NCBI RefSeq assembly: GCF_002157855.1
Contig: NZ_CP020880.1
Location: 1,302,001 to 1,366,000 of the forward strand
DNA from: Sutcliffiella horikoshii
GTDB taxonomy: Bacteria > Bacillota > Bacilli > Bacillales > Bacillaceae_I
Reading direction: 5' to 3'
DNA length: 64,000 nt
The notes under the pieces were generated by a model, which did not search any database, was not told the origin of the DNA, and saw only the letters and a program-made list of their open reading frames with translations. The translations under genes and the position numbers were made by a program. Of the stretch, positions 27,631 through 64,000 are shown one piece after another (within the stretch, counting starts at the first letter, position 1; each line of letters opens with the position of its first letter).

Positions 27631-27723
27631 TTCGGTCAATTATCCCAAAACTTCGGTCAACTTTTCAAAATCTTCGGTCAAAAATCCGGAAACTTCGGCC
27701 AACTTTTGAAAACCTTCGGACAT
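27631..27723 (+). repeat. 21-bp tandem repeat, 4.4 units
   Basis: Units start with TTCGGTCAA (or TTCGGCCAA) at 27631, 27652, 27673, 27694 and 27715, exactly 21 bases apart, with more variable second halves. In one plus frame each unit encodes seven residues (SVNYPKT, SVNFSKS, SVKNPET), but no ribosome site or credible gene surrounds it. Confidence 0.85.
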
Positions 27724-30892: not shown

Positions 30893-30925
30893 CAGCTCAT
30901 TAGGTGACTAGTGGGCTGTTTTTGT
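30893..30925 (+). terminator. Terminator of cvfB
   Basis: CAGCTCA (30893-30899) pairs with TGGGCTG (30912-30918), followed by TTTTTGTTTT. Confidence 0.7.
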
Positions 30926-30944
30926 TTTCTCAAGGCCTGAAGCT

Positions 30945-31178
30945 GTAGGTGGAGTGGGAAAACTGTAAGAGAGGGGGCGTGTCAAAGCCCGAAAGGAGAG
31001 TTGAAGTAGGAAAACGGTAAGAGAGGGGGCGTGTCAAAGCCCGAAAGGAGAGTTGAAGTAGGAAAACTGTAAGAGAGGGGGCGTGTCAAAGCCCGAAAGG
31101 AGAGTTGAAGTAGGAAAACGGTAAGAGAGAGGGCGTCTCAAAGCTCGAAACGAGAGTTGAAGTAGGAAAATGGTCACT
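30945..31178 (+). repeat. 52-bp tandem repeat array, about 4.4 units
   Basis: GTAAGAGAGGG recurs at 30965, 31017, 31069 and 31121, exactly 52 bases apart. Each unit contains CCCGAAAGGAG (or CTCGAAACGAG in the last) and ends GTAGGAAAAC. Units 1-3 are nearly identical; unit 4 is diverged. The 31180-31235 stretch holds a decayed unit (CTATACGCCCGAAC, TCTAATAGAAC) matching the array at 63047. Since 52 is not a multiple of three, it does not encode a repeat protein. Confidence 0.9.
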
Positions 31179-31246
31179 TAGACTTGATCTATACGCCCGA
31201 ACTAACGACTAACGCAATCGAAATGTCTAATAGAACATTCCCTACA

Positions 31247-36796: not shown

Positions 36797-37078
36797 CAGA
36801 TTTGGGGTAATCTGATGCCCTAAAACAAAAGAAATGAGTGGTTAGAGGTCACCAAAGAGCTATTCTGATGCCCTCAAATAAAAGAAATGGGTAGTTAGGG
36901 GGAACCAAAGAGGAGTTTTGATGCCCCCAAACAAAAGAAATGAGTGGTTAGAGGTCACCAAAGAGCTATTCTGATGCCCTCAAACAAAAGAAATGAGTAG
37001 ATAGGGGTAATCAAAGAGGAGTTTTGATGCCCCCAAACAAAAGAAATGAGTGGTTAGGGGTAACCAAAGAGCCAAAAC
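36797..37078 (+). repeat. 53-bp tandem repeat array with alternating unit types
   Basis: TGATGCCC occurs at 36813, 36866, 36919, 36972 and 37025, exactly 53 bases apart. Units alternate between a form preceded by GAGCTATTC and one preceded by GAGGAGTTT, so a 106-bp higher-order period exists. Shared segments are AAACAAAAGAAATGAGT and GGTTAGGGG/GAGGTCACC. It ends about 38 bases before the clpB start, so any clpB promoter must be in or before it. Confidence 0.9.
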
Positions 37079-43058: not shown

Positions 43059-43247
43059 ATGGAACAAGATAGAACGATGCAATATATGGCCATAGCCATG
43101 AAATATTTACCAGAAGCAAAACAAATGCTTGATGAAACAGGATTAGAGTTAGAGCCTCAACATATTCAACCACTTGTCTCGTTACTGACAAAAGTGATGG
43201 ATGAAGCATATGAGCTCGGAAAACAAAATGCGTTAGATTTAGAATAA
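43059..43247 (+). CDS. comZ: Competence regulator ComZ
   Basis: 62 residues. MQYMAIAMKYLPEAKQMLDE and the C-terminal VMDEAYELGKQNA with a leucine-rich middle match ComZ, which in B. subtilis represses the comG operon. It is cotranscribed with med and ends at a strong terminator. Confidence 0.9.
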   Translation: MEQDRTMQYMAIAMKYLPEAKQMLDETGLELEPQHIQPLVSLLTKVMDEAYELGKQNALDLE

Positions 43248-46229: not shown

Positions 46230-46291
46230 TAGTAAGGGGTTATGAAAATCATTAAGTTTAGAATTTAGTAGCTGCTTTGTATATTGGGGTA

Positions 46292-46386
46292 TAAAGACAT
46301 GCTGGAGTGAAGAAGCTGTTCAGCGAGGTCTTTACATGGTGTATTAAGACATGCTGGAGTGAAAAAGCCGTCCAGCAAGGTCTTAA
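46292..46386 (+). repeat. Two 52-bp-spaced hairpin units
   Basis: Hairpin 1 (46292-46334): TAAAGAC/GTCTTTA outside, GCTGGA/TTCAGC inside. Hairpin 2 (46344-46386): TTAAGAC/GTCTTAA outside, GCTGGA/TCCAGC inside. Starts are 52 bases apart, and the differing stem bases change on both sides, keeping the pairs. Confidence 0.85.
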
Positions 46387-54942: not shown

Positions 54943-56113
<1,171 letters not shown>

Positions 56114-56133: not shown

Positions 56134-56374
56134 AAAAAGGCCCATTCATCCCTAAAAAAGGGACGAATGGACCGTGGTACCACCCTTATTATTTCACACA
56201 AAATTGCAGAAATCACTTAACCTTGTAACGTAAGGATACGTCACAGCCTACTAATAGGTTCAGCCATGAAGCTCAGAAGTCCATTCCTAAACGTTAGCTG
56301 TTTGTTCCCACCAACCACAAACTCTCTAAAAAACTAAGCTGTTTAGTACTATTCTCCATCATTGCTTTTAATAA
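56134..56374 (-). ncRNA. T-box leader of trpS (Trp specifier)
   Basis: On the minus strand the T-box reads AAGGGTGGTACCACGG (56174-56189), followed by a terminator stem (CCATTCGTCCCT with AGGGATGAATGG) and a U run at 56134-56138. Upstream is a stem I with GGTTGGTGGGAAC. The specifier is UGG (complement of 56281-56283, in GAATGGAC), the Trp codon. Uncharged tRNA-Trp would stabilise the antiterminator. Confidence 0.92.
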
Positions 56375-62022: not shown

Positions 62023-62956
62023 TGAAAAGTTAGTGGAAATTCGCAACCTAAAGCAATATTTTAATGAAGGAAAGCCGAACATGGTAAAAGCAGTAGACGG
62101 CTTGAATTTCGATATCTATCGCGGTGAAACGCTTGGACTTGTTGGAGAGTCGGGATGTGGGAAGTCCACAACAGGCCGTACCATCATACGCCTTTATGAT
62201 GCAACAGACGGAGAAGTACTCTTTGAGGGCGAAAACGTTCACGGCAAAAAGTCTAAGAAAGACTTGTTGAAATTCAACCGCAAGATGCAAATGATCTTCC
62301 AAGATCCTTCTGCATCCTTGAACCCTCGTATGACGGTTGCCGACTGCATTGCAGAAGGAATCGACATTCACGGATTGGCGAAGTCGAAAAAGGAACGTCT
62401 TGCTCGTGTGCATGAACTACTAGAAACGGTTGGTTTAAATAAAGAGCACGCCAACCGTTATCCACATGAGTTCAGTGGCGGGCAGCGCCAACGTATCGGT
62501 ATCGCTCGTGCATTAGCGGTGGAACCGGATTTCATCATTGCCGATGAGCCGATTTCTGCATTGGACGTTTCCATTCAGGCACAGGTTGTCAACTTGATGA
62601 AAAAGCTTCAAAAGGAAAAAGGGCTAACGTACTTGTTTATCGCCCATGACCTTTCCATGGTGAAATACATCTCCGACCGTATCGGAGTAATGTATTTTGG
62701 TAAGATTGTTGAGCTTGCTGATAGTAACGAGCTTTATAATAATCCAATTCATCCGTACACAAAATCTTTATTGTCCGCGATTCCTCAACCAGATCCGGAT
62801 TCTGAGCGCAGCCGTAAGCGTTTTGCTTACGATCCAGCATCCCATGGCTATGCCAAGGATGAGGAGTTAGAGTTGCGTGAAGTACGACCAGGACACTTTG
62901 TCTTGTGTTCCGAAGCGGAGTTTAAAAAGTATCAAGCTGAGTATGCAGGTAAATAA
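62012..62956 (+). CDS. oppF: Oligopeptide ABC transporter ATP-binding protein OppF
   Basis: 314 residues from the ATG at 62012 (GGTGG five bases upstream; a GTG three codons earlier overlaps that site). Walker A GESGCGKS, signature FSGGQRQR, Walker B FIIADEPISALD. The C-terminal region has a single Cys (FVLCSEAEF) instead of the four in AppF. Last gene of the operon. Confidence 0.93.
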   Translation: MATNEKLVEIRNLKQYFNEGKPNMVKAVDGLNFDIYRGETLGLVGESGCGKSTTGRTIIRLYDATDGEVLFEGENVHGKKSKKDLLKFNRKMQMIFQDPSASLNPRMTVADCIAEGIDIHGLAKSKKERLARVHELLETVGLNKEHANRYPHEFSGGQRQRIGIARALAVEPDFIIADEPISALDVSIQAQVVNLMKKLQKEKGLTYLFIAHDLSMVKYISDRIGVMYFGKIVELADSNELYNNPIHPYTKSLLSAIPQPDPDSERSRKRFAYDPASHGYAKDEELELREVRPGHFVLCSEAEFKKYQAEYAGK

Positions 62957-62966
62957 GTTTTCTAGA

Positions 62967-63000
62967 AACCGATTCCTCGATTGTGGGGGTCGGTTTTTTT
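62967..63000 (+). terminator. Terminator of the opp operon
   Basis: AACCGATTCC (62967-62976) pairs with GGGGTCGGTT (62986-62995, two G-T pairs), then a T run. Confidence 0.85.
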
Positions 63001-63046
63001 GTGGATGAGTCTAAACTCCCAAAGCTTTTACGAAAGAGGCAGAAGT

Positions 63047-63475
63047 GTCTAATAGAACGGTTCTATATGACCGAAGCTCGGTGGGTAGAGGGGGAAAAGT
63101 CTAATGGAAGGTTCTATACGACCGAAGCTCGGTGGGAAGAGGGGGAAAAGTCTAATAGAGCGGTTCTATACGACCGAAGCTCGGTGGGAAGAGGGGGAAA
63201 AGTCTAATAGAGCGGTTCTATACGACCGAAGCTCGGAGAAAAGAGGCAGAAAAGTCTAATAGAATGGCTCTCTATTACCGAAACTCCTCCACCAAAGCCA
63301 AATCGGTAACAGAGAAGCTGTCTCTCCGCCCGAAACTTCTCGGCCAAAGCTAAAACGGTAACAGAGAAGCCGTCTCTCCGCCTGAAACTCCCCCACATAA
63401 GCTAAAACGGTAAAAGAGAAGCCCTCTCAACACCCGAATCCCCTCAACAAGAAACAAAACGGTAACAGAGAACCC
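63047..63475 (+). repeat. 52-bp tandem repeat array, about eight units in two subtypes
   Basis: GTCTAATAG-type starts at 63047, 63099, 63150, 63202 and 63254 are 51-52 bases apart. GGTAACAGAG-type starts at 63305, 63357, 63409 and 63461 are exactly 52 apart. Unit hairpins: ATAGAA/TTCTAT (63052-63066), ATAGAG/TTCTAT, TAATAGA/TCTATTA (63256-63276), AGAGA/TCTCT and GAGA/TCTC. The second subtype aligns with the array at 30945 (GGTAA, AGAG, CGTSTC, CCCGAAA, AAAAC). The rest of the gap before the next gene shows no clear feature. Confidence 0.9.
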
Positions 63476-63621
63476 TTCCTGCAAACTCTCATCACTCTCA
63501 TCACCCACTACCACTCTAGTACTCTCGAATTATTTTGAAGGAAATTGTTGAAAAAGGTAAAAAAACAACGATTTTCCAGTATAATAGAGATAGCATATAA
63601 GAGAAGGGATTTTGAAATGAA

Positions 63622-64000
63622 ATGATGAAAAAAATGATTGGTGGTCTGGTGGCTGCAGTCGGAATTTTCGTATTAGGTGGAACGCTAGTACAAGCAGAAG
63701 GGGAAGAAGTACTTCAAGCGGCACAACATGCAACAAAAAAGGTGGAAATGCAAACACGCGAGCTGCCAATATCGATTGCGAGATTTGCGTTTGACTCAGG
63801 ATATACTTTTACATATCCAGATGCAGTTAGAGGGATCTATGTAACAGGTCATTCAGCAGGTGGGGAAAGATTTCCACGCTTACTAGATCTATTGAACAAA
63901 ACAGACCTTAACGCAATGGTTATTGATATTAAGGATGATCATGGGTATCTGACTTACATACCGGAGGAGGAAGACTCCCCATTCATGGACATTGCACAGC
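63622..64000 (+). CDS. Putative glycoside hydrolase (DUF4015/COG1306), N-terminal part
   Basis: 126 codons before the right edge. A signal peptide (MMKKMIGGLVAAVGIFVLGG, then TLVQAEG) is followed by VRGIYVTGHSAGGERFPRLL and LNAMVIDIKDDHGYLTY, the start of the DUF4015 barrel. The protein is probably exported; the substrate is unknown. AAGGG lies 13 bases upstream of the first ATG, which overlaps a three-codon frame (ATGAAATGA). The gene is truncated by the window, not broken. Confidence 0.8.
   Translation, partial: MMKKMIGGLVAAVGIFVLGGTLVQAEGEEVLQAAQHATKKVEMQTRELPISIARFAFDSGYTFTYPDAVRGIYVTGHSAGGERFPRLLDLLNKTDLNAMVIDIKDDHGYLTYIPEEEDSPFMDIAQ

Follow-up and report, generated by a model that had tools for sequence, protein, structure and literature searches.

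A 52-bp tandem array downstream of oppF in Sutcliffiella horikoshii belongs to a published satellite class and is possibly a helically phased DNA scaffold oriented along replication

The tandem array that lies 3' of oppF in Sutcliffiella horikoshii, within the 64,000-nucleotide stretch of DNA analysed here as a whole (the window), is a member of the published class of 52-nt Bacillus satellites and not a new RNA family. To the reading of this satellite as a phased, dyad-bearing DNA scaffold with a putative bound protein, tied to the direction of replication, we would give an even chance. New in this analysis are the unit length that stays fixed while the spacers diverge, the phasing at 10.4 bp, the polarity along replication and the presence of an array at the opp site in all 7 carriers of the family.

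The array and the class to which it belongs

The array (63047–63475) consists of 8–9 units of 52 bp and begins just 3' of the oppF terminator. Tandem Repeats Finder (TRF) identified a period of 52 at 63047–63286 (4.6 copies, 89% match) and at 63278–63472 (3.8 copies, 79% match), the self-match over 63030–63480 reaches 0.71 for a lag of 52 and 0.58 for one of 104, and the steps between the units located with a profile are 52, 51, 52, 52, 52, 52, 52 and 52, which bears out the initial annotation of about eight tandem units with a 51–52 bp period after opp. As also annotated there, the array holds no reading frame: no ORF of at least 80 aa lies over it, and its neighbours are the oppF-type ORF, which stops at 62956, and an ORF that starts at 63622, about 147 bases beyond the end of the array. 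A stem search recovered the hairpin stems that had been named; stems present in the array are GTCTAATAGAAC/GTTCTATATGAC (12 nt, 83% paired), TAATAGA/TCTATTA (7 nt, 100% paired) and an alternative with a longer loop, TCTCTATTACCGA/TCGGTAACAGAGA (13 nt, 92%). The annotation of the array as lacking spacers did not hold, as the comparison of many arrays divides each unit into a core of ~30 nt, kept between arrays, and a spacer of ~20 nt, which is locus-specific and repeated inside the array. The opp-site array joins two subtypes, A (arms ATAGA/TCTAT) first and B (arms AGAGA/TCTCT) second, with a mixed unit between them:

62967–63000, plus strand: Rho-independent terminator of the opp operon, read from the sequence as a stem-loop followed by seven T, 3' of the ORF end at 62956 and directly before the array
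63003–63046, plus strand: decayed first unit, a weak profile match (9.2 bits, E 0.19) in register
63047–63254, plus strand: four subtype A units with the core GTCTAATAGA...TCTATACGACCGAA, one unit being 51 bp long (TRF, profile steps, core profile)
63255–63306, plus strand: mixed unit with an A-type left arm and a B-like right arm, then a B-type left arm (unit profile and core typing)
63307–63475, plus strand: three subtype B units with the core GTAACAGAGA...TCTCTCCGCCCGAA and a final left half-unit (TRF at 63278–63472, profile steps)
30925–31240, plus strand: second array of the same family, with five B-type units (the first without its left arm), one A-type unit and a left half-unit (TRF, profile)

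The second array sits between convergent ORFs of 300 aa (plus strand) and 328 aa (minus strand).

The 52-nt noncoding tandem repeats of Bacillus have a constant length, a variable sequence and, in the available text of Subirana & Messeguer 2021 (PMC8161180), an unexplained function; a protein polymerising on DNA, or small RNAs, are proposed there as their role. A satellite is defined in that text by at least 4 repeats of 51–53 nt, at least 60% of them of the same length; in the opp-site array seven of the eight steps measure 52 and the remaining one 51. It is noncoding, lying between the two ORFs given above, and the same genome holds several families of the same length, namely a second one of different sequence (family 2) and further repeats of 51–53 bp. 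Thus the likeness to the published satellites, as far as the available text describes them, covers the length of 51–53, the noncoding location, the typical number of 4–10 repeats, the coexistence of several same-length families in one genome and the combination of short constant signals with variable parts. Table 1 of PMC8161180 lists B. horikoshii with the family 22_52_12, which resembles family 2. The initial annotation had not recognised the family, which is true of Rfam and not of the literature, where the class, at least in outline, is published (PMC8161180). In the available text no sequence conservation between species is described, whereas the core found here is common to three genera; species specificity is presented in PMC8161180 as a tendency rather than a criterion, with exceptions allowed for close relatives. 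That text also mentions that a repeat often contains a short signal together with its reverse, while the orientation, the position after terminators, dyads as a general feature and the 10.4-bp phasing have no counterpart in it, the words orientation, terminator, palindrom and hairpin having zero occurrences each in the part available.

Searched with the DNA of the opp-site array, the genome of origin (two contigs, the main one of 4.28 Mb) gave 43 matches, and a covariance model of the core gave at least 150; 37 sites of this family (family 1) were typed jointly from the match lists. A covariance-model search of related genomes, an idea of the initial annotation, found the core to be common to 7 Sutcliffiella genomes, Allobacillus and Neobacillus. 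The 7 carriers among the 16 Sutcliffiella genomes have at least 118 cores each and the other 9 have 0 or 1 match; among 45 further genomes from the same family and order, single matches occur in 3 (E 1.5e-5 to 0.008). A pattern scan located the exact type-A core in 34 stretches of public genomes, from Sutcliffiella horikoshii, Bacillus sp. RO1, RO2 and CHD6a, Allobacillus (three species) and Neobacillus rhizophilus. In Allobacillus and Neobacillus, too, the arrays are spaced at 52 bp, and the core counts per whole genome are 28 in Neobacillus and 10 and 31 in two Allobacillus genomes. No IMG/VR contig carries the exact type-A core pattern (type A being the one scanned), and a phage origin was rejected on this result.

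An earlier paper on these satellites, by Subirana and Messeguer, reportedly appeared in J Bacteriol in 2020; the open-licence literature, which comprises neither that paper nor the supplements, yielded nothing on the orientation, helical phasing or terminators of these repeats.

Family 2 has 45 matches in the genome of origin and is present in 11 of the 16 genus genomes. In 464 kb of this genome (20 sample stretches and the window) 34 tandem repeats were found, including several further ones with units of 51–53 bp or multiples, and of 20–21 or 40–42 bp, so that both published satellite size classes are represented. In the window these comprise a 53-bp tandem repeat at 36811–37072 (106-bp higher order) with a dyad of its own, TGGTTA/TAACCA, class-like and of different sequence, a 52-bp repeat of two copies at 46285–46384 with the long inverted repeat AAGACATGCTGGA / TCCAGCAAGGTCTT, and a 21/42-bp repeat of the other published size class at 27631–27719 (TTCGGTCAAC...). 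Strong dyads are also seen in further arrays of the genome of origin, in the stretches L227 (9541–10157, 52 bp, 11.9 copies) and L215 (16115–16469, 103 bp, i.e. two units of 51–52).

Comparison with other repeat systems revealed partial likenesses. The STAR element of Staphylococcus aureus, as described in the available text of PMC3532100, is likewise made up of direct repeats scattered through intergenic regions, with a short constant core and spacers that are longer and locus-specific, and it too has a variable copy number and an unexplained function. Unlike the repeats studied here, it has the core TNTGTTGNGGCCC with spacers of 40–44 bp, and its loci are, according to the same text, not common to the species, whereas the sites found here are. 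STAR was rejected as a candidate, the exact core TNTGTTGNGGCCC occurring in 0 of 349 loci; in the window it has one match with one mismatch, at 43152, for a chance expectation of 0.82. CRISPR arrays consist of identical repeats with unique spacers. They share with the present array a partly palindromic constant part that alternates with a variable part, and were rejected since the variable part is here repeated within the array and not unique.

Unit length, helical phasing and pairing

Across 90 non-redundant arrays, the step from one core to the next is 52 in 387 of 424 cases, 51 in 14, 53 in 3 and 50 in 2; the remaining 18 steps are scattered, 7 of them near two units. Outliers of 40–43 occur four times, 55, 58 and 114 once each and 44–49 never, which hints at whole-turn steps, yet the outliers are too few. 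Over 69 arrays the identity averages 34% in the spacers vs 75% in the cores.

Published families with a unit of exactly 52 nt were collapsed to 15 unrelated ones, and over these the A/T spectrum tops at the fifth harmonic, i.e. 10.4 bp (z 6.1 for A/T and 7.0 for AA/TT), followed by the eleventh (3.7 and 4.3), while 60 control sets of 15 random 52-mers from the genome of origin gave at the fifth harmonic 0.12 and 0.63 on average and 3.71 and 4.15 at most. For five families of this genome the fifth harmonic reaches z 3.6 for A/T and z 1.4 for AA/TT, the latter below k=8 and k=9. In family 1 alone the GC-type steps peak at 10.4 bp and AA/TT has its maximum at the ninth harmonic (k=9), a test that is not independent because the cores of family 1 are homologous. 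Since the A/T peak at 10.4 bp recurs in unrelated families, the simplest reading is that 52 bp corresponds to five turns of B-DNA, with sequence features phased to the helix, and selection may act on this phasing.

Pairing was analysed in 111 distinct cores with five measures, 500 shuffles and slid-hairpin controls. The tight hairpin is paired in 82.1% of the cells, its slid versions in 13–50%. The number of paired cells, the number of cells changed on both sides and the covariation score exceed all 500 shuffles. The two other measures lie lower than the average shuffle (pairs with changes on both sides, 2 vs 3.9; further pair types, 8 vs 9.9), because the other stem positions are simply conserved and essentially one pair changes on both sides. 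Columns 8/21 (GC in 55, UA in 51) carry all two-sided changes but one, the second pair having a single such cell, so that within the family the pattern amounts mainly to a conserved sequence switching between two subtypes, which are marked by what is essentially the only co-varying pair of the eight (G-C to T-A). Two columns that would lengthen the arms hold mismatches which are themselves conserved, T-C in 405 of 507 cores and A-A in 270 of 507. Both subtypes are found inside one array in 15 of 89 arrays, and the second array site carries, at the same place, type A in two species and mainly type B in three. Within one core the subtype of the two arms agrees in 355 of 369 cases, and a right arm agrees with the left arm that follows it in 366 of 369. 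These values thus do not distinguish the tight from the long-loop dyad; switches counted by hand, leaving out first cores with flank as left arm, number 4 within the core and 3 in the spacer.

Among 27 consensus sequences of published 52-nt families, 13 possess a tight dyad of differing sequence (counted when at most 2% of that family's shuffles reach it) where about 0.5 would be expected, and 14 do not. Judged from these consensus sequences, pairing is often preserved within the 52-nt class although the sequence changes. The initial observation that the stems change and stay paired thus applies across the class and to the subtype switch, and within the family it narrows to the single co-varying pair; the covariation it had wanted assessed over more units is likewise divided, three measures for and two not. 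A homodimeric protein site would produce the same pattern as a hairpin. Of 23 families typed, one was set aside because its arms were unequal; in the remaining 22 a GTC...GAC foot common to the dyads was seen 13 times, a count that none of 5000 null sets reached. With the procedure automated and families collapsed, the foot was seen in 5 of 10 (P 0.05); it is not claimed, because several hairpins were picked by eye and some families are related.

Orientation along replication and retention of sites

The polarity of the arrays was determined by placing family-1 and family-2 sites of two genus genomes against the replication arms. In the genome of origin the GC skew of 20 sampled stretches has one sign up to 1.9 Mb and the other from 2.1 Mb on, apart from a single stretch at 4.0 Mb; in the second genome the terminus was assumed near mid-chromosome. 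According to the search lists for the two genomes, 32/37 and 30/34 sites of family 1 and 29/30 and 39/40 of family 2 point along replication, and for sites with flanking ORFs called by a simple longest-ORF rule the counts are 60/68 for family 1 and 69/71 for family 2. The informative class is that of convergent gene pairs, as transcription gives no preference there: the replication direction is followed in 19 of 20 family-1 and 16 of 17 family-2 sites (35/37 over two related genomes, many sites being orthologous between them; 19/20 in the genome of origin alone). Between two lagging-strand genes 3 of 5 sites run along replication and between divergent genes 5 of 6, and five reversed family-1 arrays lie between leading-strand genes. 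The polarity of the arrays thus tracks the fork better than the upstream gene.

The purine content of the leading strand is 0.60 and 0.63 in the arrays vs 0.54 in the genome; in reversed arrays it is 0.56 for the five of family 1 and 0.38 for the one of family 2. The GC skew of the other, non-reversed family-1 arrays (0.07) is no higher than that of the genome (0.09). Since the leading strand is purine-rich in the reversed family-1 arrays too, the polarity could come from mutation as well as from function. At ~297.5–298.5 kb of the genome of origin (L012 822–1760) two family-1 arrays lie side by side in opposite orientation, and the leading strand of the reversed one is still G-rich. The motif GAGAAGGG, which we take to be the B. 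subtilis SRS, occurs 6 times on the leading and 0 times on the lagging strand (shuffle mean 3.2), and the polar motif GGGNAGGG 3 times and once, respectively (shuffle mean 5.7).

The array 3' of oppF is present in 7 of 7 carriers, with differing unit numbers and spacers (in G012 the contig ends there and shows no more than the start of the array). At the same site the 9 non-carriers exhibit a different 52-bp dyad repeat (one genome, G002), traces of that repeat (two), a 21/42-bp repeat (one, G014) or none by eye (five); the repeat of G014 is GGACGAATGGAAGGGGAAACT (L155 2500–2700, opp orientation). The second array site has arrays in 5 of 7 carriers, a half-unit remnant in one and is empty in one, and none was seen there in the 9 non-carriers. 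The arrays at orthologous sites of the carriers are therefore old and kept in place, while the loss and the remnant imply that single arrays are dispensable. The lone core of the non-carrier G002 (~4.133 Mb) is flanked by ORFs of 438 and 196 aa, and the array at 701.6 kb of the genome of origin similarly by ORFs of 446 and 196 aa; the lone core is perhaps an ancestral or remnant unit.

Proposed role and competing explanations

We propose that the array most likely works as double-stranded DNA, in which each unit would span five helical turns and the dyad core and the A-tracts would recur on the same face of the helix, unit after unit. Such an array would form a phased, probably curved scaffold, with a putative dimeric or oligomeric DNA-binding protein every 52 bp. 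A terminator-like site is located 5' of 50 of 75 family arrays vs 153 of 932 random stretches, and the position of the arrays in gaps after terminators, together with their direction along replication, suggests a likely role in chromosome organisation, replication or segregation rather than in the regulation of a neighbouring gene. The fixed length, the phasing, the polarity and the retention at the opp site favour a DNA-level element, protein-bound or curved, over an RNA. The dyads of differing sequence in published families, the arrays kept at the second site in 5 of 7 carriers and the core shared at 52-bp spacing with Allobacillus and Neobacillus also agree with it, and the dyad may be a cruciform or a dimeric protein site. 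Against the DNA scaffold speak the loss and the half-unit at the second site, the 9 of 16 genus genomes that lack the family apart from 0–1 matches, the AA/TT signal, which in family 1 tops at k=9 rather than at 10.4 bp and in the families of this genome is low at the fifth harmonic, the polarity and purine-rich leading strands, which can come from mutation, and the transcription of satellites in B. coagulans, reported in the available text of a companion paper (PMC8625621).

This transcription, seen in RNA-seq, is one of the reasons to consider a folded RNA, i.e. a read-through transcript with hairpins acting as small RNA, sponge or stabiliser, a role also proposed in print; the pairing of the arms across subtypes and published families agrees with it, and the upstream ORF points at the array in 78 of the 85 arrays for which that ORF is known. 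We nevertheless regard it as quite improbable. The sense strand of the opp-site array folds no better than its shuffles (z -1.03, 15 of 100 as good), and compared with shuffles it folds less well than the antisense strand (z -2.56, 0 of 100), which goes against the folded-RNA half of the initial annotation. The weaker z of the sense strand recurs over 56 family-1 arrays (-1.57 vs -2.33) and 67 family-2 arrays (-2.75 vs -4.30), values that are rough, being based on DNA parameters and 15 mononucleotide shuffles each. G-T mismatches exceed A-C mismatches in the five inner pairs (63 vs 38), a mild excess that an RNA could explain, while over all twelve column pairs they do not (184 vs 494). The location 3' of terminator-like sites and the orientation along replication at convergent genes also count against an RNA, and the search of the window against Rfam 15 gave no match at gathering score over the array. 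Its only match lies elsewhere, a T-box leader (RF00230, 156 bits) on the minus strand at 56156–56371, upstream of the minus-strand ORF at 54943–55938, which is presumably trpS. The evidence is on balance not in favour of a selected transcript.

The main and serious rival, to which we assign a real if minor chance, is a satellite that has no function. On this account the units are expanded and kept alike by replication slippage and recombination, the dyads make slippage more likely, the polarity results from a preference of lagging-strand synthesis for one orientation, and arrays persist only where they are harmless, after terminators. The fast change of unit number and spacers between species at the same site, the homogenised units within an array, the purine-rich leading strand of forward and reversed family-1 arrays and the clean loss and remnant at the second array site are all as expected from such a satellite. 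It leaves without explanation the length held at 52 while spacers randomise, the 10.4-bp phasing common to unrelated published families and the retention at the opp site in all carriers, and the better-folding strand, which is inconsistent in raw energy (24 vs 31 of 56 arrays; 39 vs 28 of 67), also speaks against it. Movement of a palindromic repeat by the Y1 (RAYT-like) transposase of the genus appears very improbable. REP/RAYT systems, the subject of PMC3733652 and PMC3116915, resemble the present case in having intergenic palindromic repeats and a Y1-type gene in the genus, and PF01797 has one or two matches in each of the 16 genus genomes, in the genome of origin as an ORF of 230 aa on the minus strand at ~4.006 Mb (L228 2328–3020). 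Here, in contrast, the repeats form direct 52-bp tandem arrays of one orientation, kept at orthologous sites, and their presence is not tied to the gene, which is found in 16/16 genomes and so also in the 9 non-carriers (one copy, in G006, being broken), while arrays are found in 7/16; the REP/RAYT link was rejected on these counts. The Y1 gene seems settled rather than mobile, as in both the genome of origin and G005 it lies beside an ORF that we take to be a gamma-glutamyltransferase gene (ggt).

Returning to the phased DNA scaffold, a bolder version, which we consider speculative and rather unlikely, holds that the 52-bp satellites of Bacillaceae constitute a replication-polar chromosome-organising system, in which a conserved protein would read the shape and polarity of the array and follow the direction of the fork or of segregation. 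Any sequence with five phased turns and a dyad would then serve, which would account for the coexistence of many unrelated families. What leads some bacilli to carry noncoding arrays by the dozen, all held to a 52-base repeat, is an open question in print, for which five phased helical turns with a dyad offer a physical candidate, and the polarity along replication, even between convergent genes, is newly proposed here. If the scaffold reading is true, bacteria have shape-based chromosome signals that are independent of any one sequence; if it is wrong, the polarity would still be a clear case of replication shaping satellite DNA.
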